A stretch of 64,000 bases of DNA, from positions 1 through 64,000 of the forward strand of contig NZ_JBGGWB010000002.1 in assembly GCF_041321155.1 (NCBI RefSeq), in the 5' to 3' direction. A program made the translations under genes and the position numbers. Below, piece by piece: positions 20,285 to 59,189 of the stretch. Position 1 is the first letter of the stretch; each line of letters opens with the position of its first letter. This DNA comes from Sphingomonas sp. IW22 (GTDB taxonomy: Bacteria > Pseudomonadota > Alphaproteobacteria > Sphingomonadales > Sphingomonadaceae). The notes under the pieces are model-generated. The model did no database searches, was not told the origin of the DNA, and saw only the letters and a program-made list of their open reading frames with translations.

Positions 20285-20302
20285 TACGTCAAACGACGCA
20301 TA
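20285..20302 (+). promoter_or_regulatory. 18-bp operator candidate, copy 1 (hupE operon)
   Basis: TACGTCAAACGACGCATA. It lies 66 bp before the hupE start, with a GGTAAG -10-like element about 40 nt downstream of the first T. Confidence 0.7.
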
Positions 20303-20367
20303 CGGCCCGCCAGCACCCCGGCGGTAAGACACTTTGACAGGTTTTTCATACTGCCAAGGGGGTTCGG

Positions 20368-21108
20368 ATGGCCGGTACGAAGGGGCGCATGTTGTTGCGC
20401 GGGGCGGCGGCGCTGGCGGTGAGCGCGGTGATGGCGGCGCCGGCGCTGGCGCATGATGTCAGCGAACATGCGCGCCAGATGATGCTGGAGGGCGGGCTGA
20501 TCGACGTGGTGTGGATCGGCGCCGAACACATGCTGACCGGTTATGATCATTTGCTGTTCCTGCTGGGCGTATTGTTCTTCCTTCAGGGTTTCGGACCGAT
20601 CGTGCGGTTCATCACCGCCTTTACGCTGGGCCATACGCTGACGCTGATGGGCGCGACGATGCTGGGCATCACGGCCAATGCCTATCTGGTCGACGCGGTG
20701 ATCGCGCTGACCGTTTGTTACAAGGCGTTCGAGAATCTGGGGCTGTTCCGCAGCTGGTTCGGCGTGGATGCGCCTAACCTGATCTATATGGTATTCCTGT
20801 TCGGGCTGATCCACGGCTTTGGCCTGTCGACCCGGTTGCAGGACATGACGCTGGTCGAGGATTCGGCACTGGTGTCCAAAATCCTGGCGTTCAACGTCGG
20901 CGTCGAACTGGGGCAGGTCGCGGCGCTCAGCCTGATGATCGGCGTGGTGCGGCTGTGGCGGCAGACGACGGTGTGGACGCCAGTGATGCGCGCGGCGAAT
21001 CTGGCGCTGCTGGTGGCAGGGCTGGGGCTGTTCGCGGTACAGATGGACGGGTTCGTGCGCGACGACACGCAAGTCGCGGCAATGGTGGCGACCAGCGCAA
21101 AGGGCTGA
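20368..21108 (+). CDS. HupE/UreJ-family membrane protein (nickel permease candidate)
   Basis: A 246-aa membrane protein with signal peptide (ending PALAHD) and six to seven hydrophobic helices. Family landmarks are GYDHLLFLLG, FTLGHTLTLMG, LIHGFGLS and NVGVELGQ, with histidines and acidic residues inside helices. HupE/UreJ proteins move nickel into cells making hydrogenase or urease. It is the first gene of an operon with a TonB receptor (2-bp gap), a DUF4198 protein and a NikL-like protein, and follows operator copy 1. It differs from the two parvulin-linked HupE proteins by lacking their 150-residue N-terminal domain. Confidence 0.85.
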   Translation: MAGTKGRMLLRGAAALAVSAVMAAPALAHDVSEHARQMMLEGGLIDVVWIGAEHMLTGYDHLLFLLGVLFFLQGFGPIVRFITAFTLGHTLTLMGATMLGITANAYLVDAVIALTVCYKAFENLGLFRSWFGVDAPNLIYMVFLFGLIHGFGLSTRLQDMTLVEDSALVSKILAFNVGVELGQVAALSLMIGVVRLWRQTTVWTPVMRAANLALLVAGLGLFAVQMDGFVRDDTQVAAMVATSAKG

Positions 21109-21110
21109 TC

Positions 21111-23132
21111 ATGCGCCGCCCTGCCGTTCGCGCGTTTGTCTGCGCCACCTGCCTGCTCGCCCCCGCCGCGACACTGGCAAAGGAAGCGGCGGCGCCCGAC
21201 GAACCCATTGTGGTGAAGGGCCAGCTGGTCGCGGCGGAAGATGCGGCCTGGTCCACCACCACGCTGACGACCGAAAACATTCGCGAGCAGGGTTTCGCCG
21301 ATTTCGACGATCTGCTGCGCTTTGTCCCCGGTGTAGCGGTACGCGATTTCGGGCTGGGTGGGGTCGCGAACGCCATCGTCATTCGCGGTTTCGGCAATGG
21401 CGGGCATGGCGGCGATCTGGGTGCGGTGATCGACGGCATCCCGCTGAACGAGGCGATGAGCCATGCCGATGGCTATGTCGACCTGAACGTCGTCGTGCCG
21501 CTGGAGGTCGATGGGCTGACCGTTTATCGCGGCCCTGTTTCGGCGCTGTACGGAAATTACAATCGCGGCGGACTGATCCGCATCGATACGCGCAAGGGCG
21601 GCGATTACCTGAATTTCGACATTGGCGCGGGTGCATTCGAAACCGCGGATGTGCAGGCGGCGGCGGGCCACGAATGGGGCGGCGGCACGCTGAACGTCGC
21701 GGGGCAATTCTATCTGACCGACGGATACCGGCCGCGTTCGGATCAGGCGCGGCAGACGCTGTCGGCGCGCGCGGCGTTCGACCTGTCGGGCGCGGTCAAG
21801 CTCGCGCTGTCGGGCCGCTATCACCATGCTGACGCCAACAGCGCCAGTTACCTGACCGCCGCGCAATTTGCACGCGATCCCTACGGCATCGACGCTCATG
21901 TCCCGAACGACGGTGCGACCAAGCATTTCGGCACGCTGCGCGCGGACCTGAGCGTGGCGCTGTCCCCGCGCACCAGCATTGTCAGCTTCGCCTATGGCAC
22001 GGGACAGGATTTTACGCGCTGGTTTACCCGCCCCGTCAGTGCGACGGCATGGCGGCAGCGTGAGGAGAGCTATGACCGGCGCATTTTCGGGGCGGGAACC
22101 AGCTTGAACGGATCGCTCGATCCGGGCTGGGCGGCGGCGCCGATCACCTATTCGCTGGGAGCAGAGCTGTTTCGCGAACGGACCGATTTCCAGTTCTACG
22201 ACGGGCTGAACCGCCGCCGCCGCACAACGCCAGCGGGCAATGATCGCCGGACCGAGTTGAACAGCGCGTCGCTGTTTGCCGAGGTTCAGGCACCGCTACA
22301 CCGCCTGTTCGACCTGTCGCTGGGGCTACGCGGCGACAGCTTTACCGGCGGGTGCCGGCGGTTGGGGCCGGAGACGGGCAGCGACCCGTGCGGCGCGCTG
22401 AACGACGTCCGGCACCTCAGCCCCAAGCTGGGCGCGCGGTCACAACTGACCGGCTGGCTGCAAGCGCGTGCCAGTTGGGCGGAGGGGTTCGCCCTGCCCA
22501 ACAATTTCGTCAAATATGCCGTCGGCGGACAGGTGCTGGACCCCAACGTCTTTCGCCAGGCCGAACTGGGCCTGCGCCTGACACCATTGTCCGGGCTGGT
22601 GCTGGATGCGGCGGCGTTCCGCCTCAATTCGACGCAGGAGGTTCGCACCGTCGCGCCGGGCATTTTCGAGAATTTCGGCCGGACCCGGCGGCATGGGATC
22701 GAGGCAAGCGGGGAGTGGCAGGTCTCGCCCTCACTATGGGCCCGCGCCGTCTATGCCCATGTCGAGACGCGGATCGTCGACAATGCCGATGCGACGCTGT
22801 TGGGCAAGGCGGTGGCGGGCGTGCCCGACGACACGCTGAACGTCGATGCGATGTGGCGGCCGGTCGATCGCTGGTCGTTGGCAGCGAACTGGCGGCATGT
22901 CGGCCGCTATGCCGTGGATGTCGCAAACCGGCTGTTCGCTGACCCCTATGACACGATCGACCTGATGCTGGCGCATGAAGGAACCGCGCCGTTCGCGTAC
23001 CGCGCCTATCTGCGCGCCGACAATGTAGCGAACGCGCGATACGCGACGTCGGTGTCGGTCATCGGGGGCCAGACGCTGATGGCACCCGGCGCGCCGCGCA
23101 CCGTGCGCGCCGGCATGCAGCTATCGCTTTAA
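21111..23132 (+). CDS. TonB-dependent receptor, likely nickel/cobalt
   Basis: A 673-aa outer-membrane receptor. It has a signal peptide (MRRPAVRAFVCATC...ATLA), a plug domain (FADFDDLLRFVPGVAVRDFG, NAIVIRGFGNGG, VYRGPVSALYGNYNRGG) and a C-terminal beta-barrel ending in a hydrophobic strand with terminal aromatic/Leu residues (MQLSL). The ATG lies 2 bp after hupE; a longer frame upstream overlaps hupE and is not used. Sandwiched between HupE and DUF4198/NikL-like genes, it is best read as an importer of chelated nickel. The substrate is inferred from neighbours only. Confidence 0.85.
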   Translation: MRRPAVRAFVCATCLLAPAATLAKEAAAPDEPIVVKGQLVAAEDAAWSTTTLTTENIREQGFADFDDLLRFVPGVAVRDFGLGGVANAIVIRGFGNGGHGGDLGAVIDGIPLNEAMSHADGYVDLNVVVPLEVDGLTVYRGPVSALYGNYNRGGLIRIDTRKGGDYLNFDIGAGAFETADVQAAAGHEWGGGTLNVAGQFYLTDGYRPRSDQARQTLSARAAFDLSGAVKLALSGRYHHADANSASYLTAAQFARDPYGIDAHVPNDGATKHFGTLRADLSVALSPRTSIVSFAYGTGQDFTRWFTRPVSATAWRQREESYDRRIFGAGTSLNGSLDPGWAAAPITYSLGAELFRERTDFQFYDGLNRRRRTTPAGNDRRTELNSASLFAEVQAPLHRLFDLSLGLRGDSFTGGCRRLGPETGSDPCGALNDVRHLSPKLGARSQLTGWLQARASWAEGFALPNNFVKYAVGGQVLDPNVFRQAELGLRLTPLSGLVLDAAAFRLNSTQEVRTVAPGIFENFGRTRRHGIEASGEWQVSPSLWARAVYAHVETRIVDNADATLLGKAVAGVPDDTLNVDAMWRPVDRWSLAANWRHVGRYAVDVANRLFADPYDTIDLMLAHEGTAPFAYRAYLRADNVANARYATSVSVIGGQTLMAPGAPRTVRAGMQLSL

Positions 23133-23153
23133 GAGATTTGGGGGAGACAACCG

Positions 23154-23852
23154 ATGATCCGACACGCCCGTTCGCTGATGACGCTGTCCGCGCTGGGGCT
23201 TTCGATGCCCGCGCTTGCCCATACGGTGTGGATGGTGCCCGAACAGGGCGGGTGGCACGTGTTGTTCGGCGGCCATGCGGGGAAGTTGCAACCTTACCCG
23301 GCCGCCAAGCTGAGGCAGGTGATCGCGCTGGGCGCCGATGGCGGTGCGCTGACCGTATCGCGCCGGGCGGGGCAGGACGGCGTGCACCTGAGCGTCGCGG
23401 GCAAGCCCAGCCTGATCCTGGCCCATTACGACAATGGCATCCACACCACGCGCAGCGATGGCCCGTCAGTCGAGCAGCCGATGAACCGCGTGCCGAACGC
23501 CATCAAGGCGACCCGCGCCGTCAAGTTCCACAAGACGATTGCCGCCTGGACGCCGATCGCCGCGCGGCCCGCCGGTCAGCGCTTCGAAATCGTGCCGGTG
23601 TCGCCCGCGCAGCCCGTGGCCGGACAGGCGATGAAGGTGCGCGTGCTGATCGACGGCAAACCCGCACCTGGCATCGCGATTGCGCGCAATGAAGAGGGGC
23701 GGGATGCGGTGAGCGATGCTGATGGCGTTGCCAGCTTCACGCCCGTGCGCGGTTTCAACAAGCTGTGGTCGGGCCGACGCATGGCGGTGCAGGGCAATCC
23801 AGCCTTCACCGAATATAGCCTGGAATATTCGATGGGCTTTTTCGCGCGATGA
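23154..23852 (+). CDS. DUF4198-family periplasmic protein (nickel uptake accessory)
   Basis: A 232-aa exported protein with signal peptide (LSALGLSMPALAH) and a mature N-terminus HTVWMVP. DUF4198 proteins are found beside TonB receptors and nickel or cobalt permeases and are thought to bind metal via the N-terminal His exposed by signal cleavage. The second half is a beta-rich Ig-like domain (VRVLIDGKPAPGIAI...SDADGVASF). It sits 21 bp after the receptor gene and overlaps the next gene by 4 bp. Confidence 0.78.
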   Translation: MIRHARSLMTLSALGLSMPALAHTVWMVPEQGGWHVLFGGHAGKLQPYPAAKLRQVIALGADGGALTVSRRAGQDGVHLSVAGKPSLILAHYDNGIHTTRSDGPSVEQPMNRVPNAIKATRAVKFHKTIAAWTPIAARPAGQRFEIVPVSPAQPVAGQAMKVRVLIDGKPAPGIAIARNEEGRDAVSDADGVASFTPVRGFNKLWSGRRMAVQGNPAFTEYSLEYSMGFFAR

Positions 23853-24322
23853 CCGGGGCGATGCTGCGTGCGGCGCTTGCGCTGACGCTGGCGGCGACCG
23901 CGACTGTCGCCGGTGCACACGGGCTGTTGATGAAGGTGGCGGGACAGGGCCGCGAAATCACCGGCGAGCTGTTCTACAGCAACGGCCAGCGCGCGGGCGG
24001 CGAATGGATCGAGCTGTTCGACGCTCAGGCGCCCGACCGCGCGGTGCGGACCGTGAAGACCGATGGGGAAGGACGCTTTGCGCTAACCGGCGAACCGGGC
24101 CACGCCTATCACGTCCGCGCGACCGGGGAGGAAGGGCACGCAATTACCATGTCGATCGACCTGTCGAGCGCGGCGCGCGGATCGATGGTGCGCGATGACG
24201 GCGATGCGGCCGACAAAGGCGGGGTGCCGGCATGGGCGCTGGTCGGCGGCGCGCTGATCCTGTCCGCCATCCCGGCATGGTTTCTGCGCAAGCGCCCCCG
24301 CGCCGACGCCGACCCGGCATAG
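23849..24322 (+). CDS. NikL-like membrane-anchored metal-uptake accessory protein
   Basis: A 157-aa protein. It has a signal peptide (LALTLAATATVAGAH) leaving a mature N-terminal HGLLMKV, an Ig-like or carboxypeptidase-regulatory beta domain (ITGELFYSNGQRAGGEWIELFD ... TDGEGRFALTG), then one C-terminal transmembrane helix with basic end (FLRKRPRA). This architecture matches NikL-type components of nickel importers. It ends the operon, and its stop lies only 3 bp from the stop of the convergent response-regulator gene. Confidence 0.68.
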   Translation: MTGAMLRAALALTLAATATVAGAHGLLMKVAGQGREITGELFYSNGQRAGGEWIELFDAQAPDRAVRTVKTDGEGRFALTGEPGHAYHVRATGEEGHAITMSIDLSSAARGSMVRDDGDAADKGGVPAWALVGGALILSAIPAWFLRKRPRADADPA

Positions 24323-24325
24323 TCG

Positions 24326-25252
24326 CTATTGCGCAATTACCCGCACCGCGAACGCGGCGGCGGCGGCGCGGGTTTCGACGCCCAGTTTCTCGAAAATCTG
24401 TTCCAGGTGCTTGTTCACCGTGCGCGGGCTGATCGACAGGATTTCGCTGATGACGCGGTTGGGTTTGCCATAGCTGATCCACAACAGCACCTCAGCCTCT
24501 CGCTGGGTCAGGCTGAAACCCTGTTGCAGCCGCGCGATGTCGGCTTGCGGGTCCAGATGGTTCAGCCGCACCAGCAGCTCATTCTGCCGCCTGCGCCCCA
24601 CTGCGATCAGCTCGATCGCCTCACCGCCGCCCGTCTCCAGCCGCAGCGACTGGCCAGCGGGCACATCGTCCTGCATCAACCGCCCGATCAGTGGCGCCAG
24701 AAGCGCGGGCTGCCGGCCCTCGACCCGCGACCAGCCGGGTTCGAGCGACAGGATCAGCCGTTCCGCCGCCGGGGTGGCCCAGGTGATGCGTGCCGATGCG
24801 TCGATTGCGATCAGGTTGCGGCCCGTGGCGTCCAGCGCGAAATGGCTGCCCTGCGTCTGGCGCGCGTTGTTCATGTGGACGTGAACGCGCGCCAGCAACT
24901 CCTCGACCACAATCGGTTTGCGGACATAATCGATGCCCCCTGCCTCCAGCGCGCGCACCACATGCTCGCTTTCGGTCAGCCCGGTCATGAAGATGATCGG
25001 CACGCCCGCGCCGCCGGGATGCGCCTTGATCGCGCGCGTCGCCTCGAACCCGTCCATGCCGGGCATCAGCGCGTCCATCAGAATCAGGTCGGGCACCAGA
25101 TGGTCGATCAGTGCCAGCGCCGCATCGCCGCTGGTGGCGATCAGCACCGAAATACCGGCGGATTCGAGCGTGTCAGTCAGGAATCGCAGCGATTCGGGGG
25201 TGTCGTCGACGACGAGCACGGTGTCGGTCTGCATGGTCAGCGGTGTGTTCAT
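24326..25252 (-). CDS. LuxR/FixJ-type response regulator
   Basis: A 308-aa regulator. The N-terminal receiver (VLVVDDTPESLRFLTD, phosphoacceptor Asp in LILMDALMPGMDG, KP motif in DYVRKPI) is followed by a PAS-like middle (residues about 135-230). The C-terminal LuxR helix-turn-helix reads LTQREAEVLLWISYGKPNRVISEILSISPRTVNKHLEQIFEKLG. Its start overlaps the kinase stop by 4 bp (ATGA). It is the last gene of the urease operon and is the best candidate to bind the nine 18-bp elements. Receiver-LuxR regulators of this type (AgmR/ExaE-like) activate quinoprotein genes in other proteobacteria, which fits the qhp locus here. Confidence 0.9.
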   Translation of the reverse strand: MNTPLTMQTDTVLVVDDTPESLRFLTDTLESAGISVLIATSGDAALALIDHLVPDLILMDALMPGMDGFEATRAIKAHPGGAGVPIIFMTGLTESEHVVRALEAGGIDYVRKPIVVEELLARVHVHMNNARQTQGSHFALDATGRNLIAIDASARITWATPAAERLILSLEPGWSRVEGRQPALLAPLIGRLMQDDVPAGQSLRLETGGGEAIELIAVGRRRQNELLVRLNHLDPQADIARLQQGFSLTQREAEVLLWISYGKPNRVISEILSISPRTVNKHLEQIFEKLGVETRAAAAAFAVRVIAQ

Positions 25253-28200
25253 CGTGCGGCCCGTATTGCCGCGATCAACCCCTTCAGGTCGAACCGGTCC
25301 AGATAAGTCAAAAGCGTGCGGGCCAGTGGCGCGGCGACGGGGGCGGCGGTTTCCAAGGCGCGTACACTGGCTTCGATCCCGCGAACATGGCCGATCACGG
25401 CCTTTTGCTCGATATCGGCAAGGATCGGCAACGCGGCGGCGGGCAGCTTGATGCGCGGCGCGGTCTGAGCGGCGGGTTCGCGCGGGGCGGCCGGCTCGCC
25501 GGTCCAGCGTATGTCGAGCTGGTCGGCCAGCGTATCGAGCAGCGCGTCCAGATCGACCGGTTTCATCAGGAATCGGTCATGGGACGCATAGCCATCGCCG
25601 CCGCGATTGAATTCATGCGCGTTGGCGGAAACCATAACGATGCGGACCGCCGGACCCATGCGGTCGCGCAATGTGCGGCAGATGTCCCACCCCGATTCGC
25701 CGGGCATGGAGATGTCGAGCAGCACGATATCGGGTTGCTCGACCGCGGCGATTTCCAGCCCCGCGGCCCCGCTGGATGCTTCGAACACCTCGAAATCCAG
25801 CGGCTCCAGCAACCCGCGCAGCACGGCCAGCTGATGTTCGTCATCGTCGATCAGCAGGATCTGGCGCCGCCGTCCTTCATAACCCGATACGCGTTCGGGC
25901 GCGGGCGCGTCGACGACGGGACCGGCCACCTGACCCATCATCAGCCGCACGGTAAAGCGCGTGCCGCCGCCCGGTTCGGCATCGACCGCGATGTCGCCGC
26001 CCATGATCCGCACCAGCGCCTGGGTGATCGACAGGCCAAGGCCGACGCCCTTCTGCCGCTGCGCCTCCGGATTGCCGCCGCGTTCGAAGGGGGAAAAGAT
26101 GCGCTCCGCATCCCCCGGCGCGATGCCGATGCCGGTATCCGCGATCTCGAATGTGGCCAGTTGGCTGCGATAGGTGACGCGCAGCCGCACCGACCCGGCG
26201 GGCGTGAACTTCACCGCGTTCGACAATAGGTTGATCAGGATCTGGCGCAGCCGTTTCTGGTCGGTTCGCACGAAATCGGGCAGGTTGGGGGGGCGTTCGA
26301 AATCGAATGCGATCCCCTTTGCCTGGGCCTGGGGGCGGAACATGTTGGCGATCTGATCGAGAAACGGGGCCAGCCGCACCGTTTCGCTGGCGATCCGCAA
26401 CACCCCGCTTTCGACCTGCGAGATATCCAGCAGCCCTTCGACCAGGTTGGTCAGATGCTCGGCACTGCGGCGAATGACCTTTGCCGCTTCGGTCGGGGCA
26501 ATGTCGTGCCCGCGCTCCATCAACTGGGCATAGCCATAGATCGAGTTCAGGGGCGAACGGATCTCGTGGCTGACGCTGACCAGATAGCGGCTCTTGGCAG
26601 CGTTGGCGCTTTCGGCGGCTTCCTTGGCGCGTTGCAGTTCGGCATCGGTGCGGACGTGCGCGTCGATCTCGCGCATCAGTTGCTGCACGTGATGCTCGCT
26701 TTCCTGCATCGCCGCGCGGCGGCTTTGATGCGCCAGCACCACGATCCAGCCGATGACGCCCCCCGCCAGCGTCAGCACGATGAACAGCGCCAGGAACAGG
26801 CTGCCGACCTGTCCGCGTGTCAGGGTGAAGGCGGCGAATTGCCAGTACAGCATGCCCACCACCGCGACGTTGACGATGGTTATGGCGGTCATCACCAGAA
26901 CGAAATGGCCGACCGGGGTGTGCACGTGGCGGGCCAGCGTGCGCGGCATGGCGCGTTCCAGCCAGCGGGCAAGCTGTTCCGTCGCGCGGCTGTCGCGCTT
27001 GCACCGGTCGTGGCAGCGCGCCTCCAGCGTGCAGCAGAGCGAACAGATCGGCGCGGCATACATCGGGCAATGGGCCATATCGGCGGTTTGAAACTTGTTC
27101 TCGCAAAGAATGCACGTCCGCTCGCCCTCGCCCGGCGACCAGTGGGTGCGACGCGCAATGTAATAGCGGCCATGCGTCGCCAGCGCGAGCACCGGCGCAA
27201 CGGTGAACGCAACCGCCAGCCCGATCGCGGGGGCAAAGGCGCGCGCAATGGGGCCGAACAGGTCCAGATGCGCTGCAGCCGATACCGCGATCGACAACAG
27301 CATCGCGCCCAGACCGACCGGATTGATGTCGTACAGATGCGCCCGCTTGAACTCGATGCCCGGCGGCGACAGCTTAAGCGGCTTGGAAATCATCAGGTCC
27401 GCCGCCAGCGCGCCGATCCAGCCCGACGCCAGCGTGGCGTACAGGATCAGGATCGCCTCGATCGTGTCGAAAATGCCGATTTCCATCAGCATCAGCGCCA
27501 GCACGACGTTGAACACCAGCCACACCACGCGCCCCGGATGGTGGTGGGTCAGCCGCGAAAAGAAGTTCGACCAGGCGATCGACCCGGCATAGGCATTGGT
27601 GACGTTGATTTTAAGCTGACAGATAACGACGAACACCGTGGTCGCGATCAGCGCGATGCCGGGTTGCCCCGACATGGCGGTATAGACCCAGTGGAACATC
27701 ATCGCCGGGCTGGACGCGTCAGCCGGCGTCGCGCCGCTGACGATCAGCCGGTGCGCCAGCCAGGAACCGAGCAACAGCTTGATCCCGCCGATCAGCGTCC
27801 AGCCGGGACCGCCCGCGAGCATCGCGGTCCACCATTTCCACCGGCCGATCCGCGCGCGCGCGGGCAGGAAGCGCAGATAATCGGCCTGCTCCCCGATCTG
27901 CGGCAGCAGCGACAACAGGGTCGAGAAGGCAAAGCCGAAATACAGCAGGTTCAGTCCGCCGCTGTCGCCGAACAGGCCCGGAAAACGCGCCCATTCGCCA
28001 AGCGCTGCAGGGCCAAGCCACAGGATATAAGCAAGCGGCGCCAGTTGCAGCACGATCCACAGCCCTTGCGTGGCGGCCTGAAACCGGCTGATCGCACTCA
28101 TCCCGTAAAGGGCGATCGGGATGACCGCGAGTGCGCTGACCAGATAGGCGACCCATAGCGGCATTCCCGTCGCCGCCGTCAGCGCGCCCGCCATGATCAT

Positions 28201-28599
28201 CCCTTCCACCGAAAACAGCAGGAAGGTGAAGGACGCATAGATCAGCGACGTGACCGTCGAGCCGAGATAGCCAAAGCCTGCGCCGCGCGTCAGCAGGTCG
28301 ATGTCGAGCCCGCCGCGCGCCGCTTGCAAAGCAATGGGCAGACCCAGCACGAACATCAGTACGACCGCCGCGCCGATCGCCGCCACGCTGTTGGCAAAGC
28401 CATAGGTCAGCGTGATCGCCGCGCCGATCGCTTCGCACGCCAGGAACGCCGTGGCGCCGATCGCAGTGTTGGCCACTTGTCCCGCCGACCAGCGCCGCCC
28501 GCCATCGGCGGTATAGCGCAGCGCGTAATCCTCCATCGTCTGGCTGGCGGCCCATTTGTTGTAGAGCCGCTTTTCGCGCAGATAATCGGTGGCGTTCAT
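25249..28599 (-). CDS. NCS1-type permease fused to hybrid histidine kinase
   Basis: An 1116-aa fusion. Residues 1-480 are a 12-helix transporter resembling the NCS1 nucleobase/cytosine permease family ([42 protein letters not shown]). Residues 496-533 form a Cys-rich knot (CxxC, C, CxLCC, RCHDRC) that could bind zinc. Two more helices follow (about 563-623), then HisKA with H678 in [12 protein letters not shown], HATPase_c and a receiver (ILLIDDDE...[12 protein letters not shown]), plus a short C-terminal domain. It overlaps ureG by 4 bp, so kinase and urease are co-expressed. By analogy to CbrA-type transporter-kinases it may sense a transported ligand such as urea, a guanidino compound or a nucleobase. 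Confidence 0.9.
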
Positions 28600-30395: not shown

Positions 30396-30405
30396 CGGCG
30401 ACCTT

Positions 30406-32722: not shown

Positions 32723-32735
32723 GAATCGGCCCCTT

Positions 32736-33596: not shown

Positions 33597-33620
33597 GGGG
33601 CCGACTGTGGAGTCGGCCCC
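33597..33620 (-). promoter_or_regulatory. Hairpin abutting the ureD start codon
   Basis: GGGGCCGAC and GTCGGCCCC form a perfect 9-bp stem with a 6-nt loop, ending at the base next to the ureD ATG. It would occlude initiation if transcribed, or it may overlap the -10 region if the transcript is leaderless. Confidence 0.55.
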
Positions 33621-33630
33621 GCACGGGTCA

Positions 33631-49230: not shown

Positions 49231-49248
49231 TACGTCATTTGCTCGATA
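49231..49248 (+). promoter_or_regulatory. 18-bp operator candidate, copy 8 (qhp operon, degenerate)
   Basis: TACGTCATTTGCTCGATA keeps the left half exactly and is weaker on the right. It begins 9 bp after the ureohydrolase stop and lies 92 bp before qhpA. A CGATAG element sits 35-40 nt from its first base. Confidence 0.6.
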
Positions 49249-49322
49249 CCCCGCGCACCACCGGTCGATAGGGTCAGGTCGCGCCAAGGGTTGGGGGCGC
49301 TACCCAAGGGGGACCGATCACG

Positions 49323-51065: not shown

Positions 51066-52513
51066 CCGATTGGAGCAAGGTGCGCTATCGCCAGGGTGAG
51101 GCGTACCGGTTCGAGGCGGCGGGGCAGCCCTTCGTCTATCTGCCCGGCGCGGGCGCCATTTTCGGCACCGACGGCGCGGTGCAGGACGTTCTGGACCGCG
51201 TGGGGTCAGAAGGGGCCACCCATGTCGAGCTGATGGCGGCGCTAGGCGCGGCGGGGCACGATGCTGCCGATGCCGAGGTGCTATTGCGCGAAATGCGCCA
51301 GGCGCGGCTGATCGAACATGGCGACATGGTGCCCTTTCCCGCGCCCCAGCCGCCGCCCGCCGATTTCCCGCTTCAGGCGCTGGTGCTGAACATTACCAAC
51401 CAGTGCAATCTGGCCTGCACCTATTGCTATGAATTCGGCGCGGACAAGATCGCCACCCCGGCGGGCAAGCCGCGATACATGACGATCGAGACGGCGCGCG
51501 CATCGGTCGACCTGCTGATCGCGGAGGCGCGCGAACGCCCGGCGGTGCATGTCACCTTCTTCGGCGGCGAAACGCTGATGAACTTCCGGTTGCTGAAGGA
51601 CATCGTGGCATATGCCGACACCGCGACCGCGGCGGCGGGCAAGGCCATCACCTACAGCCTGACGACCAACGCCACGCTGCTGACCCCAGCGATGATCGAG
51701 TTCCTGTCCGACCACCGCATCGGCGTGACGGTCAGCATGGACGGCCCGCCAGAGATCCAGGACCGCCACCGCGTCTTCAAGAACGGCAAGGGCAGCTATG
51801 CCGTGATCGAGCCGCGGCTGCGCGCGCTGATCGCCGGACATCGCACGCGCGCGGTGACGGCGCGGGTAACCCTGACCGAGGGGGTGACCGACGTCATCCG
51901 CATCTATCGCCACCTGAAGGACGATTTGGGCTTTCACGAGGTCGGCTTTGCGCCCGTTACCGAATCGGGCAACCGCACCTATGCGCTGGGCGACGGTGGC
52001 ATGGACACGGTGCTGGCCCAGTTCCGCGCGCTGGCCGACGAATGGCTGGAACACGCGCTGCGCGGCGAATCGCACGGCTTCACCAATGTCAGCGAGACGA
52101 TCGGCGAGCTGATTTCGGGTGTGAACAAGTCGCATCCGTGCGGCGCGGCGCTGGGACTGATGGGCGTGGGGCCGTCGGGCGACCTGTCGCCCTGCCACCG
52201 CTTCACCGATGCCGACACGCACCGCATGGGCGATGTGTCGACCGGAATCGACCGCGCGGCGCAGGCCGATTTCCTTTCGCGCGGTCATGTCGGCGGCAAA
52301 TATGACTGCCAGTCATGCTGGGCACGACCGCTTTGCGCCGGGGGATGCCATCACGAGGCGTTCGTCCGCTACGGCGATACCGGCCACGCCAATCTGCATT
52401 ATTGCGACTGGATCCGCGAATGGACCGACGTCTGCCTGCGGATCTATGGCGAGCTGGCCGCCCGCAATCCCGATTTTCTCGTCCGCTTCGCCGACCGGAA
52501 GGGGCTGTCATGA
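51062..52513 (+). CDS. qhpD: Radical SAM/SPASM maturase QhpD
   Basis: A 483-aa enzyme. C115, C119 and C122 form the radical-SAM CxxxCxxC motif (CNLACTYCYEFG), and FFGGETLMNF follows. The SPASM domain cysteines appear in HPCGAALG, SPCHRF and CQSCWARPLCAGGC. In Paracoccus, QhpD forms the intrapeptide Cys-to-Asp/Glu thioether bonds in the gamma subunit before export. The start is the ATG overlapping the qhpA stop. Confidence 0.94.
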   Translation: MTDWSKVRYRQGEAYRFEAAGQPFVYLPGAGAIFGTDGAVQDVLDRVGSEGATHVELMAALGAAGHDAADAEVLLREMRQARLIEHGDMVPFPAPQPPPADFPLQALVLNITNQCNLACTYCYEFGADKIATPAGKPRYMTIETARASVDLLIAEARERPAVHVTFFGGETLMNFRLLKDIVAYADTATAAAGKAITYSLTTNATLLTPAMIEFLSDHRIGVTVSMDGPPEIQDRHRVFKNGKGSYAVIEPRLRALIAGHRTRAVTARVTLTEGVTDVIRIYRHLKDDLGFHEVGFAPVTESGNRTYALGDGGMDTVLAQFRALADEWLEHALRGESHGFTNVSETIGELISGVNKSHPCGAALGLMGVGPSGDLSPCHRFTDADTHRMGDVSTGIDRAAQADFLSRGHVGGKYDCQSCWARPLCAGGCHHEAFVRYGDTGHANLHYCDWIREWTDVCLRIYGELAARNPDFLVRFADRKGLS

Positions 52514-52857
52514 AGCATCTGAAACCGATCAATCGAAAGGCCGAGCGGCTCGACGCTGCGCTCGACACGCCCCCGCCGCCGGTTGGCGCAGAGGAAGAGG
52601 ATGTGGTCGCGTTGCAGGACCCCCGGCCGCATGTGCCGATGGGCTGCACCCTGTCCTTTTCCCCCGGTTGGGAAGTCGACGCGGGCGGCGGCACGGCAGG
52701 CCTGTGTCAGCCGGTGGAACGCGACATTTACGACTGTTACGTCACGTGTTTCTGGCCCGTGCAGGTGCCCGACCATGTGAACTATTCGCCCGATTGGGCA
52801 TCGAATTGCGCGGCGGCCACCAAGGATTGGCGCAGCCTTGATCTGGTGTTCCCATGA
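52510..52857 (+). CDS. qhpC: Quinohemoprotein amine dehydrogenase gamma subunit (CTQ peptide)
   Basis: A 115-aa small subunit. The cross-link pattern known from Paracoccus (Cys7-Glu16, Cys27-Asp33, Cys41-Asp49, CTQ from Cys37-Trp43) is reproduced with exact spacing by C46-E55, C66-D72, C80-D88 and C76-W82. If the mature numbering is the same, the leader is about 39 residues, rich in Pro and Glu and not a Sec signal. QhpE would cleave it. It overlaps qhpD and qhpB by 4 bp each. Confidence 0.95.
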   Translation: MKHLKPINRKAERLDAALDTPPPPVGAEEEDVVALQDPRPHVPMGCTLSFSPGWEVDAGGGTAGLCQPVERDIYDCYVTCFWPVQVPDHVNYSPDWASNCAAATKDWRSLDLVFP

Positions 52858-53933
52858 AGCGTGCGCTGGCATTCGCCGCCGCCGCGCTGGGCCTGACCGG
52901 GGCGGCGCCCGCGTCGACGCTGTTCCTGGGTTCCTATCCTGACACGCTGCTGATCTTTGACGAGGGCAAAGGCGCGGTCACGGGCCGGATCAAGCTGGCC
53001 AGCGGCCTGCCGACCAGCATGCAATTGTCCGACGACGGCAAGCGCATCTATGTGACGACGATCACCACTTCGGGGATCGAGGTGATCGACACTGCCACGC
53101 ACCGCGTCATCAACCAGTTCAGCCTGAACGACGGACCGACGCGCTGGCGCTTTTGGGGTGGTACGCCCGACCCGACGGGACGCTATTTCTATACCGTCGG
53201 GACGAAGATCGAGAAGGGCGTCGACCGCTATACCGTCAGCAAGCCGCTCTACATGGTCGTGGACCTTGAGAAAAAGTCGGTGGTCCGCACGCAGGAGGTG
53301 GATGAACAGGACGCGCGCGCGGGCGGGCGCGGTGGGTACAAGGTGTCGCCCGACGGCCGGTTCCTCTACAGCTTTGGCGAGAAGATCGTCATCGTCGACC
53401 TGCCCACGCTGAAGGCGGTCGAGCGGATCGACCTGGCCAAGCCGGAAGGCATGGGCCTTGAGGAAGTCGGTTTTGGCGGCCAGCTGGAAAACCAGCGCGA
53501 GCCGGGCAAGCTGGTGTCGCTGTTCAACGCCCAGGACCCCTATATCCACGCCAAGATGTTCGGCGTGGCGCGGTTCGACCTGACCAGCCGCCAGTTCGAC
53601 TTTACCCCGATCGGCCCCGCGCCCGATGCGATGGCGGGGCTGCAACTCTCCCCCGACGGCAAGACCGCCTATACCGTCGTGACCAACGGCAAGCTTGGCA
53701 ACAAGCGGTGCGAGTTCTGGCGGTTCGACATGACCACCAACGCCGTGCTGGACAAGGCGGAATTCCAATGCCGCTCGCGCTTCCGCTTCGGCCTGTCGGG
53801 CGACGGGGCCAAGCTGTACATCTATGGCGCCAGCTATGACATCGAGGTTTATGACGCGCGGACGCTGAAGCGGGAGCGCACCTGGGATCTGGGCGCGGAT
53901 ACCACCGGCGCGGGCATGGTGATCGCGGGATGA
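52854..53933 (+). CDS. qhpB: Quinohemoprotein amine dehydrogenase beta subunit
   Basis: A 359-aa seven-bladed beta-propeller with signal peptide (RALAFAAAALGLTGAAPA). YVTTI-like and LSPDGKTAYTVV repeats mark YVTN-type blades. It packs against the alpha and gamma subunits and forms the active-site cavity. It overlaps qhpG by 4 bp. Confidence 0.92.
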   Translation: MKRALAFAAAALGLTGAAPASTLFLGSYPDTLLIFDEGKGAVTGRIKLASGLPTSMQLSDDGKRIYVTTITTSGIEVIDTATHRVINQFSLNDGPTRWRFWGGTPDPTGRYFYTVGTKIEKGVDRYTVSKPLYMVVDLEKKSVVRTQEVDEQDARAGGRGGYKVSPDGRFLYSFGEKIVIVDLPTLKAVERIDLAKPEGMGLEEVGFGGQLENQREPGKLVSLFNAQDPYIHAKMFGVARFDLTSRQFDFTPIGPAPDAMAGLQLSPDGKTAYTVVTNGKLGNKRCEFWRFDMTTNAVLDKAEFQCRSRFRFGLSGDGAKLYIYGASYDIEVYDARTLKRERTWDLGADTTGAGMVIAG

Positions 53934-54946
53934 CGCGCCCGCCCGCGCCTGACGAGGCCCGCTTCGGCGTCGGCATCAGGGGCGACGGCGTGGCGGCGGC
54001 GGCATGTGCGCGGCTGTTGGAAGCGGCGGGGGTGCCGGTCGGGGTGCGTGCGGCGCCCCGGCGCGACGTGCCGGTCGTGATGGTCAGCGATGCCGCGCGG
54101 TTATTGCTGTGCGACGTGTTCGACCGGCCGACGCTGTTCGACGGGCTACCGCGCGTGTGGCGGCGGGTCGTGGATTGGGGCGGGCGCGAACAGGCGCTGC
54201 CGCACGGCGCAACGCTGGTATCGGGCGATGCCATGCGCGCGGCGCTGCGGGGCGGTCCACCAGGCGACGAACGGGCCAGCGATTTCGTCATTCACGCGAC
54301 CCTGCCACCGGGCTGTGCGCCCTATCGCTTTGGTGAGCGGCTGGCGAACGCCACGCGTGTCCGGCTGCGAGCGACCACGTGCCGGGAGGAATGCCGGATC
54401 GAGGCGGTGCGGTCGGGCTGGCTGTTTCTGGTCCCTGAGACCGACGACCACGGTGTCTTGCTGGCCATCGGTGCCGACGCCGACACATTGCTGGGCGAAA
54501 GCCGATCGGTCGCGCCGCGTGTCCAGCCGATCGGTGCAATCGGCGTCTTTCCCGCCGCGCCCAGCCTGACCTTGCCGCTGTGCGGGCCGCAATGGCTTGC
54601 CTGCGGCAGCGCCGCGATGTCGTTCGACCCCATTTGCGGCGACGGCGCGGCCCAGTCGGCGCGCGAAGCCATTCTGGCCGCCGCCGTCATCGCCGAGATC
54701 GCCAGCGGCGGCGATGCCGACGCGCTGCTGCTGCATTATCAGTCGATGCTGATCGCCACCATGCGGCGGCATCTGGCATTGTGTGCGCAATTCTATCGCA
54801 GCGGCGGCGACAGCGACTGGTGGCGGGCACAGCATGCTGCGCTGGTCGAGGGGCATGAATGGTGCACGGGCATGTTGATGACCCTGCCCGAACCGCGCTT
54901 CATGCTGCGCGGCTTTCGCCTCGTCCCCCGGCTGGCGGCGGCGTGA
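53930..54946 (+). CDS. qhpG: FAD-dependent monooxygenase QhpG
   Basis: A 338-aa flavoprotein with an N-terminal dinucleotide motif (GVGIRGDGVAAAACARLLEAAG) and the second FAD motif DPICGDGAAQSAREAI. In the Paracoccus system QhpG dihydroxylates the gamma-subunit Trp to build CTQ. Gene order here places it between qhpB and qhpF rather than near the operon end. Confidence 0.86.
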   Translation: MTRPPAPDEARFGVGIRGDGVAAAACARLLEAAGVPVGVRAAPRRDVPVVMVSDAARLLLCDVFDRPTLFDGLPRVWRRVVDWGGREQALPHGATLVSGDAMRAALRGGPPGDERASDFVIHATLPPGCAPYRFGERLANATRVRLRATTCREECRIEAVRSGWLFLVPETDDHGVLLAIGADADTLLGESRSVAPRVQPIGAIGVFPAAPSLTLPLCGPQWLACGSAAMSFDPICGDGAAQSAREAILAAAVIAEIASGGDADALLLHYQSMLIATMRRHLALCAQFYRSGGDSDWWRAQHAALVEGHEWCTGMLMTLPEPRFMLRGFRLVPRLAAA

Positions 54947-56640
54947 GCGTGTCCGGCGATTTGCCTGGCTGGCGCGCCTTTGCCCGGCTGGCGCCGTTCG
55001 TGCGGCCCTATCGCGCCCGGTTGCTGGGCGTGTTCGCGATCAGCCTGCTGGCGACCGCGATGGGACTGGCGCAACCCTATCTGTCCAAGCTGCTGATCGA
55101 CGAAGCGCTGATGCGGCGGGACATGAGCGCTTTGTGGATTATCGCTGCGCTGATGGTCGGCGCGACGGTGCTGGGCTATGCCATCAACATCCTGTCGAGC
55201 TGGCGCTACCTGCGGCTGTCGGCGGCGATGCTGTTCGACATTCGCGCCGCTTTGCTGCGGCACCTGCAAACGCTGTCGCCGCGCTTTTACGGCGGGTTCC
55301 GGCTGGGCGATCTGGTGTCGCGGATGAACAGCGATGTCAGCGACGTTCAGCGGATCGCGGCGGATACGCTGCTGTCCGCGGTGACGAACATCCTGTTCCT
55401 GGTCGGCTGCGCGGGGATGATGATCTGGCTCGACTGGCGGCTGTTTCTGGTCGGCACGGTGCTGCTGCCGTTCAGCGTGATGGCGTTCCTGGCGCTGCAA
55501 CGGCGCCTGACCGACGCGACGCGCACGATGCGCGAACGCGGCGCCGATCTGGGCAGCCTGATCGTCGATACCGTCCTGGGGATGCGGACCGTCACGTCGC
55601 TGCGCGCGGGCGAGCATGAGGTGGCCCGCTTTGGCCGCGCCAACGACGCCTTTGTCGCGGCGATGCTCAGGATGCAGGCGACGTCGTTCATGACCGGCGC
55701 CGTGCCGGGGACGGTGATGGCGGCGGCGACGGCGGGCGTGGTCCTGTATGGTGGCGCGCGCATCATCGACGGCGGCATGACGATCGGCACGCTGGTCGCG
55801 TTCATGGCGTACCAGATGCGGATCATGTCGCCGGTCCAGACGCTGATCGGGCTGATGGGCGGGATGGCGTCGGCGCGGGTGTCGCTGGGGCGGCTGTTCG
55901 TGCTGTTCGACACACCCGCCGATGTGCGCGAGGCCGCCGACGCCAGCCCCATCGGCCCCGTACGGAGCGCGATCGTGCTGGAAGGCGTCTCGATCGCGCA
56001 TGATCGCGGGCCGGTGCTGGAGGGGCTGGACCTGACGATCCCGGCGGGGCGCATCTGCGCGATCCTGGGCCGCAGCGGGGTTGGAAAGTCGACAATGGCG
56101 GACCTGATCGTGCGCTATCTCGATCCCGATGACGGCACCGTTCGGATCGACGGACAGGATCTGCGCGGTGTTGCGCTGGACGACCTGCGCCGCGAAGTCA
56201 TGCTGGTCGACCAGTCGCCCTGGCTGTTCAACGACAGCATCGCCGCCAACATCGCCTTTGCCGCGCCCGATGCCGATACCGCCGCCATCACCGCCGCCGC
56301 GCATGCCGCGGGGATGGATGCGTTCCTCAACCGGCTGCCGCTGGGGATGGAGACACCAGTGGGGGAGCGCGGCCTGGCCTTGTCTGCAGGTGAGCGGCAG
56401 CGCGTGGCGCTGGCCCGCGCGCTGCTCAGGCGGCCAAGCGTCCTGATCCTCGACGAACCCAGCTCCGCGCTGGATGCCGAGACGGAGGCGCTGATCGCCG
56501 GGCGGCTGCGCGCAGCGCTGCCCGATGCGACGATCATCGTCATTACTCATAAACCAGCGCTGGCCGCCATCGCCGACATGGTCGTGACGATCGAGGGTGG
56601 ACGTGCCCGGACGCTTCAGGTCCTGCATGACGTGGCGTGA
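54943..56640 (+). CDS. qhpF: ABC exporter QhpF for the gamma subunit
   Basis: A 565-aa half-transporter. Six helices (RLLGVFAISLLATAMGLAQPYLSKLLIDEAL onward) precede an ATPase with Walker A GRSGVGKST, signature LSAGERQR and Walker B VLILDEPSSALD. The GTG start overlaps the qhpG stop; a longer frame lies inside qhpG. QhpF is thought to export the cross-linked, processed gamma subunit. Confidence 0.9.
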   Translation: MSVSGDLPGWRAFARLAPFVRPYRARLLGVFAISLLATAMGLAQPYLSKLLIDEALMRRDMSALWIIAALMVGATVLGYAINILSSWRYLRLSAAMLFDIRAALLRHLQTLSPRFYGGFRLGDLVSRMNSDVSDVQRIAADTLLSAVTNILFLVGCAGMMIWLDWRLFLVGTVLLPFSVMAFLALQRRLTDATRTMRERGADLGSLIVDTVLGMRTVTSLRAGEHEVARFGRANDAFVAAMLRMQATSFMTGAVPGTVMAAATAGVVLYGGARIIDGGMTIGTLVAFMAYQMRIMSPVQTLIGLMGGMASARVSLGRLFVLFDTPADVREAADASPIGPVRSAIVLEGVSIAHDRGPVLEGLDLTIPAGRICAILGRSGVGKSTMADLIVRYLDPDDGTVRIDGQDLRGVALDDLRREVMLVDQSPWLFNDSIAANIAFAAPDADTAAITAAAHAAGMDAFLNRLPLGMETPVGERGLALSAGERQRVALARALLRRPSVLILDEPSSALDAETEALIAGRLRAALPDATIIVITHKPALAAIADMVVTIEGGRARTLQVLHDVA

Positions 56641-57379
56641 GCCGGTGCGCGTCGGCGTGATCGACAGCGGCGTCCACCCCGCGCACCCGCATATCCGTGC
56701 CGAAGCGCTCGCGACCGGTGTGGCCATCCTGCGCAACGGCGAAGTCGCGGCGGGGAACGAAGCGACGCTCGATCGGCTGGGCCATGGCACTGCCGTCACC
56801 GCCGCTATTCAGGAAAAGGCACTGGGCGCGATTTGCGTGCCCGTGCGCGTTTTTCACGACGCACTGCGCGCCAGTGCGGTGGCGCTGGTCGCGGCCATCG
56901 ACTGGTGCGTGGCGGCGCGGGTCGATCTGGTGAACCTCAGCCTTGGCACCACCAATGCCGCGCATCGCCCCGCGATCGAAGCGGCGGTCCAGCGCGCGGT
57001 GCGGGCGGGCGTCGCGGTGGTCGCGGCACGACAGGCTGGGGACGAGCCATGCTGGCCCGGCAGCGCATCCGGTGCGATCGGTGTCGTCGTGGGCGCGGAT
57101 TGCGCGCGCGACGGCTGCTTCCAGCTTGGTGATGCGTTCGCCGCGTCGGGGGAGCCACGCCCGATACCCGGTGTGCCGCCGCGTCGGAATCTGGTCGGCA
57201 TCAGCTTTGCGGTCGCGAACCTGACCGGCCTTGCCGCGCGGCACTGCGCCGAATTGCCGCTTGCGTTGGCCGGGGCGGATCGGATCGACGTGTTGCGCCG
57301 TCGCCTGGCGGATCAGGCGATGGCGAACCCGGCCAGCCGCTCCACCATCCAGAAACAGCCGACGGCGCCAACCGCATAA
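56627..57379 (+). CDS. qhpE: Subtilisin-like maturation protease QhpE
   Basis: A 250-aa compact serine protease. Catalytic Asp lies in VGVIDSGVHP, His in LGHGTAVTAAI, and Ser in GISFAVANLTG, where the usual GTSMAxP is modified. QhpE removes the leader of the cross-linked gamma subunit in the cytoplasm, which fits the lack of a signal peptide. It overlaps qhpF by 14 bp. The last 67 bp overlap the convergent hupE gene on the other strand. Confidence 0.9.
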   Translation: MTWREPVRVGVIDSGVHPAHPHIRAEALATGVAILRNGEVAAGNEATLDRLGHGTAVTAAIQEKALGAICVPVRVFHDALRASAVALVAAIDWCVAARVDLVNLSLGTTNAAHRPAIEAAVQRAVRAGVAVVAARQAGDEPCWPGSASGAIGVVVGADCARDGCFQLGDAFAASGEPRPIPGVPPRRNLVGISFAVANLTGLAARHCAELPLALAGADRIDVLRRRLADQAMANPASRSTIQKQPTAPTA

Positions 57380-58308
57380 AGCGCCGCGACCCGTGCCGGC
57401 GCCTCAATCCGCACGGCGCGCAGTCCCGCCAGCATCGCCACGATCGCGCCGACAAATACAAGCTGCCCCAGCTCGACACCGATGTTGAAGAACACCAGCC
57501 CCGCGATGCGCTCCCCCGGCCGCACGCCCAGCTCGCCCAGCGCGCTGGCAAAGCCCAACCCGTGCAACAGGCCGAACAGCGATACCACGATCAGTTGCCG
57601 ATCAGAGGCAAAACGCTGAACCCCGCGCGCGACCAGCGGCGCCTCCCGCGCCATGAATGCGATGGACAAGGCGATCGCCGCCTCCACCGGCGGGATCGGC
57701 ACGCGTACAAGGTCGAAAAACGCGACCGCCAACGAAATCGAATGGCCCAGTGTGAAGGCGCTGACCAGCCACAACAGCCCGCGCCCCCGCGCCAGCAGCG
57801 TCAGGCACAGCACGAACGCCAGATGGTCCCACCCCGTCCAGATATGCCACACGCCCTGAGCGACGAATTCGCGTGCCAGCTGGAACAGGGGGCGCGTCGA
57901 TCCCGCCGTGTCGCCCACCGGCACGGCAATGCCGCCCGCATTGGCCGCCAGGCTGCGATCCACGGCGACGCCGCCCACCGACGACAGAAAGCGTCCGCCA
58001 TCGACCTTCCACGGCGTCTGCACGACATCGCGGCCGCCAAGCGCGCGGTCGCAGGCAAAGGTATAGGCGAAATGCGCCCGCCCGGCCGCTGACTGGCGGG
58101 TCATGCCCGTCTGTCGGCATCCATCGGGCAGGGTGATGCCGTCGCTGTGCGCCAGCGTTTCGGGCACTGCCGCCGTCAGTTCATAAGTGCCGGGGTCTTC
58201 GCCTGCGCTCAGCGCGAAATCCGCCGACATGAAAATGTCCGCTCGCGCATGCGACGGTACCAGCGTCGCCAGCGCCAGCAGCAGCGCCGACAGCCTATTC
58301 CGCCACAT
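57313..58308 (-). CDS. HupE/UreJ-type membrane protein with periplasmic domain 2
   Basis: A 331-aa paralogue of the 39504-40520 protein: signal peptide (LSALLLALATLVPSHARA), periplasmic domain (DIFMSADFALSAGEDPGTYELTAAVPE...LPDGC), then the HupE membrane module. The module shows WTGWDHLAFVLCLTLLARG, FTLGHSISLAVAFFDLVRVPIPPVEAAIALSIAFMARE, LLHGLGFASALGELG and NIGVELGQLVF. Starts 14 bp inside the isomerase gene. Its 3' end overlaps qhpE antisense. A nickel-related role for urease is inferred. Confidence 0.8.
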   Translation of the reverse strand: MWRNRLSALLLALATLVPSHARADIFMSADFALSAGEDPGTYELTAAVPETLAHSDGITLPDGCRQTGMTRQSAAGRAHFAYTFACDRALGGRDVVQTPWKVDGGRFLSSVGGVAVDRSLAANAGGIAVPVGDTAGSTRPLFQLAREFVAQGVWHIWTGWDHLAFVLCLTLLARGRGLLWLVSAFTLGHSISLAVAFFDLVRVPIPPVEAAIALSIAFMAREAPLVARGVQRFASDRQLIVVSLFGLLHGLGFASALGELGVRPGERIAGLVFFNIGVELGQLVFVGAIVAMLAGLRAVRIEAPARVAALYAVGAVGCFWMVERLAGFAIA

Positions 58309-59131
58309 CGAACTTCGCCCGCAATCCGATCATCGCCGTGTCGATGGCGCGTTCCGTCTCGGCCATCATCAGATCCTGGCGCACCTGATCGCGGATCTGG
58401 CGATAGGGCAGGCGCGCGGCGGGCAGCGATTCTTCCCGTCGCACGAAATGCCACCCGCGCGGCGAGCGGATCGGGCCGACCCACCGATCCCGTGGCGCGG
58501 TGCGGAGCGCGTCGACGAAGGGCTGGCCGAAGATGCCGCGCACCATGCTGTCGCCGTAACGCGGAAAGTGGCGGCCCAGCCAGAAATCGTCCCCCGCCAC
58601 CGGCTCACCCGCATTCAGCCGCGCGAGCAGCCCCGACGCATCCGACGGTGCCTGTTCGAAAAAGATCTGGTCGAAACTGGTGCGCGGCTCACCCTGATAG
58701 CGGGTCAGGTTGCTGCTGTAGAAATCGACAAGCTGTTCCTCGCTCGGCTCTGCCGGGGCGCCCGCGATCAGATAGCGTACCTTGTCGGCCAGCCGCTTGC
58801 GCGTGTCGGCGTCGGTCAGCTGCATGTCGCGGTCGATGGCTTCGCGGAACAGCAATTCCTCGGTCAGCCATTCCTTTTTCATGCGCGCCTGGTCAGCGGC
58901 AGTGGCGCTGCGGCCGGTCAGCGTCTGAAATTCCTCCACCATCGCGCGCTCGATTTCGGCGGTGAATCGGATTTCGGGCGTCCGCTGCGCCTCGATCACG
59001 GCATAAGCGCCAAACATCGCCGTGCCCGCCAGCAGGAACGCAAACAGCGGGTCGCGAAACCATCGCCCGCCGCCCCGATGCGCGCCCGGTTCGCGTGTCG
59101 CAACTGCATCCATGGCTTGGCCCCCGACCAT
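58295..59131 (-). CDS. Membrane-anchored parvulin-type peptidyl-prolyl isomerase 2
   Basis: A 278-aa paralogue of the 38720-39520 protein, with the same order: N-terminal helix (FAFLLAGTAMFGAYAVI), LTEELLFREAIDRDM, KVRYLIAGAPAEPSEEQL, then the parvulin-like SFDQIFFEQAPSD...GDDFWLGRHFPRYGDSMVRGIFG and SPRGWHFVRREE. First gene of a minus-strand pair with HupE, controlled by the same divergent region as urtA. Start could also be the ATG at 59113. Confidence 0.8.
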   Translation of the reverse strand: MVGGQAMDAVATREPGAHRGGGRWFRDPLFAFLLAGTAMFGAYAVIEAQRTPEIRFTAEIERAMVEEFQTLTGRSATAADQARMKKEWLTEELLFREAIDRDMQLTDADTRKRLADKVRYLIAGAPAEPSEEQLVDFYSSNLTRYQGEPRTSFDQIFFEQAPSDASGLLARLNAGEPVAGDDFWLGRHFPRYGDSMVRGIFGQPFVDALRTAPRDRWVGPIRSPRGWHFVRREESLPAARLPYRQIRDQVRQDLMMAETERAIDTAMIGLRAKFDVAE

Positions 59132-59171
59132 CAGGTGCGCGACCCTAGCAGCGGGGCGAGTCGCTTTTGCC

Positions 59172-59189
59172 TACGTCAAATGACGCATG
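59172..59189 (+). promoter_or_regulatory. 18-bp operator candidate, copy 9 (urt and parvulin-HupE 2)
   Basis: TACGTCAAATGACGCATG, nearly a palindrome, lying between divergent operons. A CCATAG element sits 36-41 nt downstream on the urt side; a GCTAGG element lies at the matching distance on the other side. One element may serve both. Confidence 0.8.

Follow-up and report, generated by a model that had tools for sequence, protein, structure and literature searches.

An 18-bp operator at urea, nickel and amine-oxidation genes of Sphingomonas sp. IW22 and the two-component system predicted to act through it

The 64,000-nucleotide stretch analysed here (Sphingomonas sp. IW22, contig NZ_JBGGWB010000002.1, positions 1 to 64,000; hereafter the window) carries nine copies of an 18-bp element at the genes for urea import, urease and several associated functions. 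We consider it very likely that these elements are the operators of a two-component system, the LuxR/NarL-type response regulator encoded at 24326–25252 (minus strand) and the hybrid histidine kinase encoded at 25249–28599 (minus strand), through which the units behind the elements would be co-activated. An initial annotation had already named this regulator as the binding protein, and the assignment is backed by the co-occurrence of site and regulator across genomes, by the conservation of the sites at orthologous promoters in other genera, and by covariation between the operator and residue 280 of the regulator.

A scan of the window with the consensus given in the initial annotation, allowing up to three mismatches, yielded 10 matches, compared with a mean of 1.00 (standard deviation 1.15, maximum 6) in 100 shuffled sequences. 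The 10 matches are the nine places proposed earlier, all of which are therefore present, plus an overlapping reverse reading of the element at 59172. The elements at 33631(−), 35333, 38621, 44763(−) and 59172 match without a mismatch, those at 20285 and 44803 with one, and those at 35303(−) and 49231 with three. The strands are as originally assigned except at 38621, where the zero-mismatch reading lies on the minus strand and the next gene (38702) on the plus strand. The proposal that the copies sit in control regions holds well: 9/9 are fully intergenic, whereas intergenic DNA makes up only about 2.4% of positions 19530–63898 (estimated from a gene list with approximate starts). Since the consensus matches fall at the listed places only, the pao (12591–16305) and gcd (16414–18858) genes are indeed without a copy. 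Mean pairwise identity is 0.77 in the core and falls to 0.33 and 0.29 in the 60-bp flanks on either side.

The frequency of the motif elsewhere in the genome had been set beforehand as a test. The strict form, TACGTCANNNGNCNCATN, has seven matches in 4,003,234 bases, all of them inside the window, and its reversed control has none. With up to one mismatch, TACGTCANNNGMCSCATG is found eight times in the genome, seven of these in the window; with up to three mismatches the search is swamped by background (335 matches vs 214 in the control) and is uninformative. No copy of the palindromic TACGYCANNNGRCGTA form was found in the IW22 genome. The matrix used for bit scores derives from the nine window sites themselves, of which the weakest score 24.9 and 25.4 bits. 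Outside the window, a match at C2:151945–151962 (minus strand, locus L026, 20.0 bits) precedes an exported-looking open reading frame (ORF) with a CxxCH motif and has a TATCAT starting at position 39. This match is a possible tenth site of the regulon, preferred for its placement and not for its score. The ORF behind it has no Pfam or NCBIfam match and no tblastn relative among the fetched loci. A relaxed pattern, written after this match had been seen, gives 8 genome matches and none in the control.

The conserved core of the element is a 16-bp dyad of 7-2-7 layout, TACGTCA, two A/T bases and YGMCSCA, followed by a conserved T. In the window the right half is a degenerate counterpart of the left one, and the perfect palindrome TACGTCA-NN-TGACGTA is common in other genomes. 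To examine the promoter geometry we aligned the asymmetric sites scoring 22 bits or more, 75 in number (9 from the window, 34 from the family and 32 from the wider set of loci described below). Another 21, from a total of 96, have a right half ending in CGTA and were excluded from the −10 count. Also dropped there were L198 and L209, the same DNA as G031 and G011; these two loci, neither of which has a full dyad or a match upstream of the kinase, were kept in the wide kinase-upstream, residue-280, tree and gene-content counts. The aligned sites show a −10 signal at downstream positions 40–45, which is not built in because the matrix fixes only positions 1–18. Among the 66 sites outside the window, which include close relatives and are not independent, A41 occurs in 40, T45 in 31 and both in 24, compared with a mean of 2.2 and a maximum of 12 for the same A/T pair at other offsets. 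The first base of the dyad thus lies 39 nt before the −10 hexamer, which puts the dyad at about −51 to −36, and no TTGACA-like −35 was seen at the aligned promoters. As judged from this spacing, the dyad is in the position of a class II activator, in good agreement with the activator-like placement at or near the −35 that had been suggested.

The suggestion that −10-like sequences recur 38–41 nt from the first base stands in outline: it applies to 8/9 window sites, with 38621 taken in reverse reading, and fails at 44803. Scored for likeness to the −10 of other genomes, the window hexamers reach modest values, 1.7–4.3 bits with the best of ten offsets taken, and only 1.7 bits at 35333. Since the non-promoter side can score as well (4.3 bits, for example, at 35333), single −10 assignments in the window are weak, and the firm support for the predicted −10 is that from the 66 sites of other genomes. 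At ureD, counting from the site's first base, an in-frame ATG is found at 51–54 nt in 8/11 genomes (the window, L184, L185, L186, G057, G094, G099 and G252; L184, L185 and L186 have a further ATG at 43), a spacing that is not kept in G133 (67), G031 (66) and G011 (none up to 74). As this ATG stands where transcription would start, the ureD mRNA may be leaderless. A GC-rich inverted repeat between the operator and the ATG of ureD in the window (33596–33648, minus strand) could be the terminator of the preceding gene.

The regulator combines an N-terminal Response_reg domain (5.3e-28) with a C-terminal GerE domain (5.6e-17). Its residue 280, an asparagine, we take to lie in the recognition helix, by analogy with NarL. 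The kinase consists of a membrane domain of NCS1 fold, a Cys-rich segment, HisKA and HATPase_c domains and a receiver. The modelled sensor (residues 1–560) matches NCS1 transporters in structure, above other LeuT-fold proteins. By sequence it gave only weak zinc-finger matches in the PDB, and Pfam matched no transporter family in it. Neither the kinase nor any of 11 N-terminal domains matched a STAC family in Pfam, the presence of STAC in the library being unconfirmed.

We then asked how site and regulator are distributed over 298 genomes drawn evenly from the family, using a regulator threshold of E ≤ 1e-40. The strict motif is present in 26 genomes and the regulator in 32, with 13 having both (Fisher p 8.6e-8); put differently, the motif occurs in 13/32 genomes with the regulator and in 13/266 without it. 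In 11 of the 13, a strict site and the regulator share a contig and lie within about 30 kb of each other; the remaining two, G106 and G029, have the strict site on a separate contig. The urea genes are rarer: ureC and urtA are each found in 10/298 genomes, the identical ten, and all ten have the regulator and the long kinase in the locus. A matrix scan of related genomes, a check that the initial annotation had recommended, found the operator at 16 bits or more in 9/10 of these urea genomes with the window-built matrix (8/10 by the strict pattern), and the tenth, G109, encodes a regulator with Asp280 and has TACGCAATCCTGCGTA between urtA and the kinase gene. The site lies close before urtA in 8/9 operator-bearing urea genomes, the exception being G133, and before ureD in 8/9, the site in G030 preceding arginase-family genes that themselves precede ureD. 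In G133 about 0.9 kb of other sequence, possibly another regulon gene, separates operator and urtA (stretch 12611–13498). G117 has the long kinase without urease in a genome that is 87% complete. The regulators of urease-less genomes mostly pair with kinases whose match starts after the sensor. Near four regulator relatives paired with shorter kinases (G013, G079, G147 and G165) there are dyads of the TACGCCA/TACGTCA type, and the operator grammar therefore seems to extend beyond urea genes.

Residue 280 of the regulator covaries with operator bases 5–6, Asn going with TC and Asp with CA, CG or TG. Across 105 regulator loci (2.7 Mb) we found 35 complete dyads of the form TACGxyA-NN-Ty'x'CGTA. 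Complete dyads are present in 17/24 Asp loci, where all 34 half-sites read CA (19), CG (12) or TG (3); in 17/73 Asn loci, where 30/34 half-sites read TC, with TT (3) and CC (1) making up the rest; and in 1/5 Gln loci (CC, 2). Control patterns gave few matches (spacer of one base, 1; of three, 0; of four, 0; inner A/T swapped, 0; reversed pattern, 5). When one mismatch was allowed in the region upstream of the kinase gene, 22/22 Asp loci carried CA, CG or TG and 22/49 Asn loci TC or TT. Mapped onto the regulator tree, Asp280 requires four changes, of which well-supported branches force two. Its holders are a 21-row clade (Bradyrhizobium, Afipia and Enhydrobacter), Aureimonas altamirensis, G109 and G252, and changed operators accompany Asp280 in the clade, in Aureimonas altamirensis and in G109. 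In Bradyrhizobium the window matrix found little, and aligned intergenic regions gave the TACGCAA form. Two Aureimonas loci, L253 and L261, differ from each other in this way, Asp280 with TACGTGAAATCGCGTA and Asn280 with TACGTCAAATGACGTA, and make a natural test pair.

The system recurs elsewhere in the Pseudomonadota. A scan with the sensor alignment matched at least 597 stretches, at least 589 of them relatives, and the best 80 were kept as wide loci. In 58/80 we found the kinase, the regulator and urtA but no ure match, and in 6/80 all of these with ure as well. At 16 bits or more, 37/77 kinase-upstream regions contain a site (three of the 80 loci had no usable stretch), compared with a mean of 0.33 and a maximum of 4 for permuted matrices. 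Beyond urtE, an acetamidase/formamidase is encoded in 7/10 related loci scanned, one gene per locus; the three of these that were compared with NCBIfam all passed its formamidase model. This neighbourhood suggests that the system often accompanies a transport unit for short-chain amides or urea. In the sphingomonad cluster the regulon seems to have been widened, a direction of change that we infer.

The mechanism that we infer for the window, from inducer and phosphotransfer to DNA binding and activation, would run as follows. Through its NCS1-like membrane domain the kinase would sense a small nitrogen-containing molecule, with urea or a short-chain amide akin to it the most likely candidate, and would phosphorylate the regulator. 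Bound as a dimer to the 7-2-7 dyad, at about −51 to −36, the regulator would recruit RNA polymerase to promoters with a recognisable −10 and no TTGACA-like −35. Urea import, urease, exported ureohydrolases, nickel uptake, a TonB receptor and periplasmic amine/aldehyde oxidation would be co-induced, and the regulator and kinase genes would be switched on through the ureD site.

Several observations weigh against this reading. In the genome itself, C1:739572 (22.4 bits) and C1:43224 (21.3 bits), both outside the cluster, approach the weaker window sites; the one apparently falls between a convergent pair of ORFs, preceding neither, and the other within an open frame whose translation resembles an aldehyde dehydrogenase. 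In the family, 19/32 regulator genomes are without a strict site, the stretch read in 10/22 urease-less regulator genomes contains no site of at least 16 bits, and 13 other genomes show a strict match but no regulator. These stray matches cannot be dismissed as coding chance, because the open-frame test that covered 9/13 of them also covered 10/14 sites in regulator genomes. In the wide set, whole loci hold a match of at least 16 bits in 50/80 cases and none in 30 (Bradyrhizobium carry the other form), and 27/49 Asn-class loci have no near-perfect dyad upstream of the kinase. As for residue 280, the single Lys280 locus (TC) and Thr280 locus (CA) fit no rule, G252 has Asp280 yet keeps TACGTCA, and 21/24 Asp rows are one clade, so that independent switches number only about three.

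Some of these points would suit an unlinked regulator binding the sites while the two-component pair is merely carried along with the urea genes. The dyad by itself does not identify the protein that binds it, and such a regulator would account for genomes that have one partner without the other. We nevertheless regard this as unlikely, since the dyads recur beside the pair where no urease is nearby (the 58/80 wide loci and 37/77 kinase-upstream regions given above) and since the operator changes along with residue 280. NikR, whose gene (19008–19511) lies about 0.8 kb from site 20285 and beside nickel uptake genes, is a more specific candidate: urease is a nickel enzyme, HupE genes stand behind several sites, and the nine elements could on that account mark a nickel regulon. 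The covariation of the operator is with the LuxR-type regulator, however, and E. coli NikR sites are long-spaced, unlike the 7-2-7 dyad. As a general binder NikR was rejected, being present (E ≤ 1e-10) in only 3/9 operator-bearing urea genomes and 3/19 genomes tested, and we hold a NikR-bound nickel regulon to be very unlikely. Least credible by far is that duplication of an interspersed repeat produced the nine copies. The parvulin-HupE module does occur twice, with an identical 18-mer at each occurrence, but even that pair has unrelated flanks (0.30 and 0.20); the top flank value, 0.65, belongs to 44763/44803, two sites that face each other and each fall within the other's flank. On these unrelated flanks a repeat origin was rejected, and the conservation of sites at orthologous promoters in other genera speaks against it as well.

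It is also conceivable that the regulator binds the dyad but represses, to be released by the signal, as overlap with the −35 would suit repression too. A −10 at fixed distance without a TTGACA-like −35 is, on the other hand, the usual sign of activator dependence, and CrbR, the nearest precedent with experimental tests, activates from the same position: an imperfect inverted repeat at −52 to −36 of the acs promoter is needed for activation, the CrbR motif is found in 91/112 promoter regions, and four mutations abolish activity (PMC5715377). We therefore judge repression to be improbable, to about the same degree as binding by an unlinked regulator, and retain the co-activating two-component system as the preferred explanation.

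The individual sites and the genes they would serve are as follows. Site 20285–20302 (+), with a −10-like TAAGAC at 20325–20330, precedes genes for HupE, a TonB receptor, a DUF4198 protein and a NikL-family protein (20368–24322, plus strand; profile matches, NikL below the curated cut-off), which would serve nickel uptake. Site 33631–33648 (−), with CACAGT at 33609–33604, precedes ureD and the genes behind it (33596 to 24326). This run comprises the urease genes ureG, ureF, ureE, ureC, ureB, ureA and ureD (28596–33596, minus strand; profile matches) and, following ureG, the kinase and, last, the regulator genes; given this position, kinase and regulator are probably autoregulated through the ureD site. 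Site 35303–35320 (−; three mismatches; CAGATT at 35283–35278) precedes an arginase-family gene (33684–35240, minus strand) whose product has a signal-like N-terminus and the metal-ligand motifs searched for. Facing the other way, site 35333–35350 (+; weak TAGCGA at 35372–35377) precedes genes (35385 onwards) for a MauD-like protein, below cut-off, and a Tat-like molybdenum hydroxylase. Two parvulin-HupE pairs are served by sites, the first by 38621–38638 (−, used in reverse reading; CATACT at 38662–38667 on the plus strand), which precedes parvulin, HupE and sulfotransferase-TPR genes (38702 onwards). Site 44763–44780 (−; TAGCCT at 44741–44736) lies before a TonB receptor gene (42126–44603), and site 44803–44820 (+), with no convincing −10 at 38–41, before three tandem arginase-family genes (44919–49221, plus strand). 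The middle one of these (46385–47734) encodes a protein without the SFDVD-type motif that may be an inactive partner subunit. Site 49231–49248 (+; three mismatches; TAGGGT at 49269–49274) precedes the quinohemoprotein amine dehydrogenase genes (49323–57379, plus strand), which encode the alpha subunit, a radical SAM (rSAM) maturase, gamma (52315–52857), a beta-like protein, a QhpG-like protein, an ABC exporter and QhpE. Finally, site 59172–59189 (+) stands between the urea ABC transporter genes urtA, B, C, D and E (59250–63898, plus strand; TAGCGT at 59211–59216) and the second parvulin-HupE pair (59131, minus strand; TAGGGT at 59147–59142), and probably serves two divergent promoters, as there is a −10-like hexamer in each direction.

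A regulon over the nitrogen operons, as first proposed, is thus borne out in its core and needs widening, since the sites also take in nickel uptake and amine/aldehyde oxidation. All four arginase-family proteins have signal-like N-termini, three of the four with all metal-ligand motifs searched for, and they are encoded near the amine dehydrogenase and the Tat-like molybdenum hydroxylase. This set of enzymes suggests a periplasmic route for guanidino compounds.

Operators and regulons of two-component systems are a known kind, and several described systems resemble this one. NarL sites are 7-2-7 inverted heptamers beginning TAC. Here the heptamer is another one, and about 120 residues separate the receiver and GerE matches. 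The acetate system CrbS/CrbR (MxtR/ErdR) likewise has a hybrid kinase with a transporter-like sensor, a LuxR-type regulator and an inverted repeat, and among the CrbR sites listed some, such as TACGACTAAAGTCTAAA, are by our own reading of 7-2-7 form starting TACG (PMC5715377). It differs in its sensor, an SLC5 symporter with STAC, whereas the fold here is closest to NCS1 proteins, and in its operator bases and targets (acs and actP, as opposed to urt, ure and fmd). In the pyruvate system RpuS/RpuR of Sinorhizobium, a transporter-fused kinase is again paired with a LuxR-type regulator that activates a transporter operon, but the sensor is SLC5/STAC and the site is an imperfect direct repeat at −80 to −43, not a dyad (PMC9100948). 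In Ectopseudomonas guguanensis G3, urtABCDE lies beside a LuxR-type pair with fmdA close in locus number; what could be seen of that source gives annotation only and reports no operator, regulon or test (PMC13296017). No description of the present system and no stated signal for the kinase was found among the literature matches listed, which covered few subscription journals. The system is thus apparently undescribed, and it has an unusual sensor fold and a natural switch of specificity.

More tentatively, we propose that a transporter of the NCS1 kind was turned into the receptor of a urea or short-chain-amide two-component system that is widespread in Pseudomonadota, that residue 280 sets the operator bases, and that in sphingomonads the regulon expanded beyond a formamide/urea transport unit to take in the periplasmic stripping of urea from guanidino compounds and the oxidation of the remaining amine. 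The sites described here supply a likely DNA target and a target list for a kinase family matched in at least 589 stretches. Residue 280 offers a natural specificity switch of one residue and two bases that is directly testable. For the sphingomonads, a single regulon that ties together urea import, nickel supply, exported ureohydrolases and amine oxidation would predict a periplasmic pathway for guanidino compounds.

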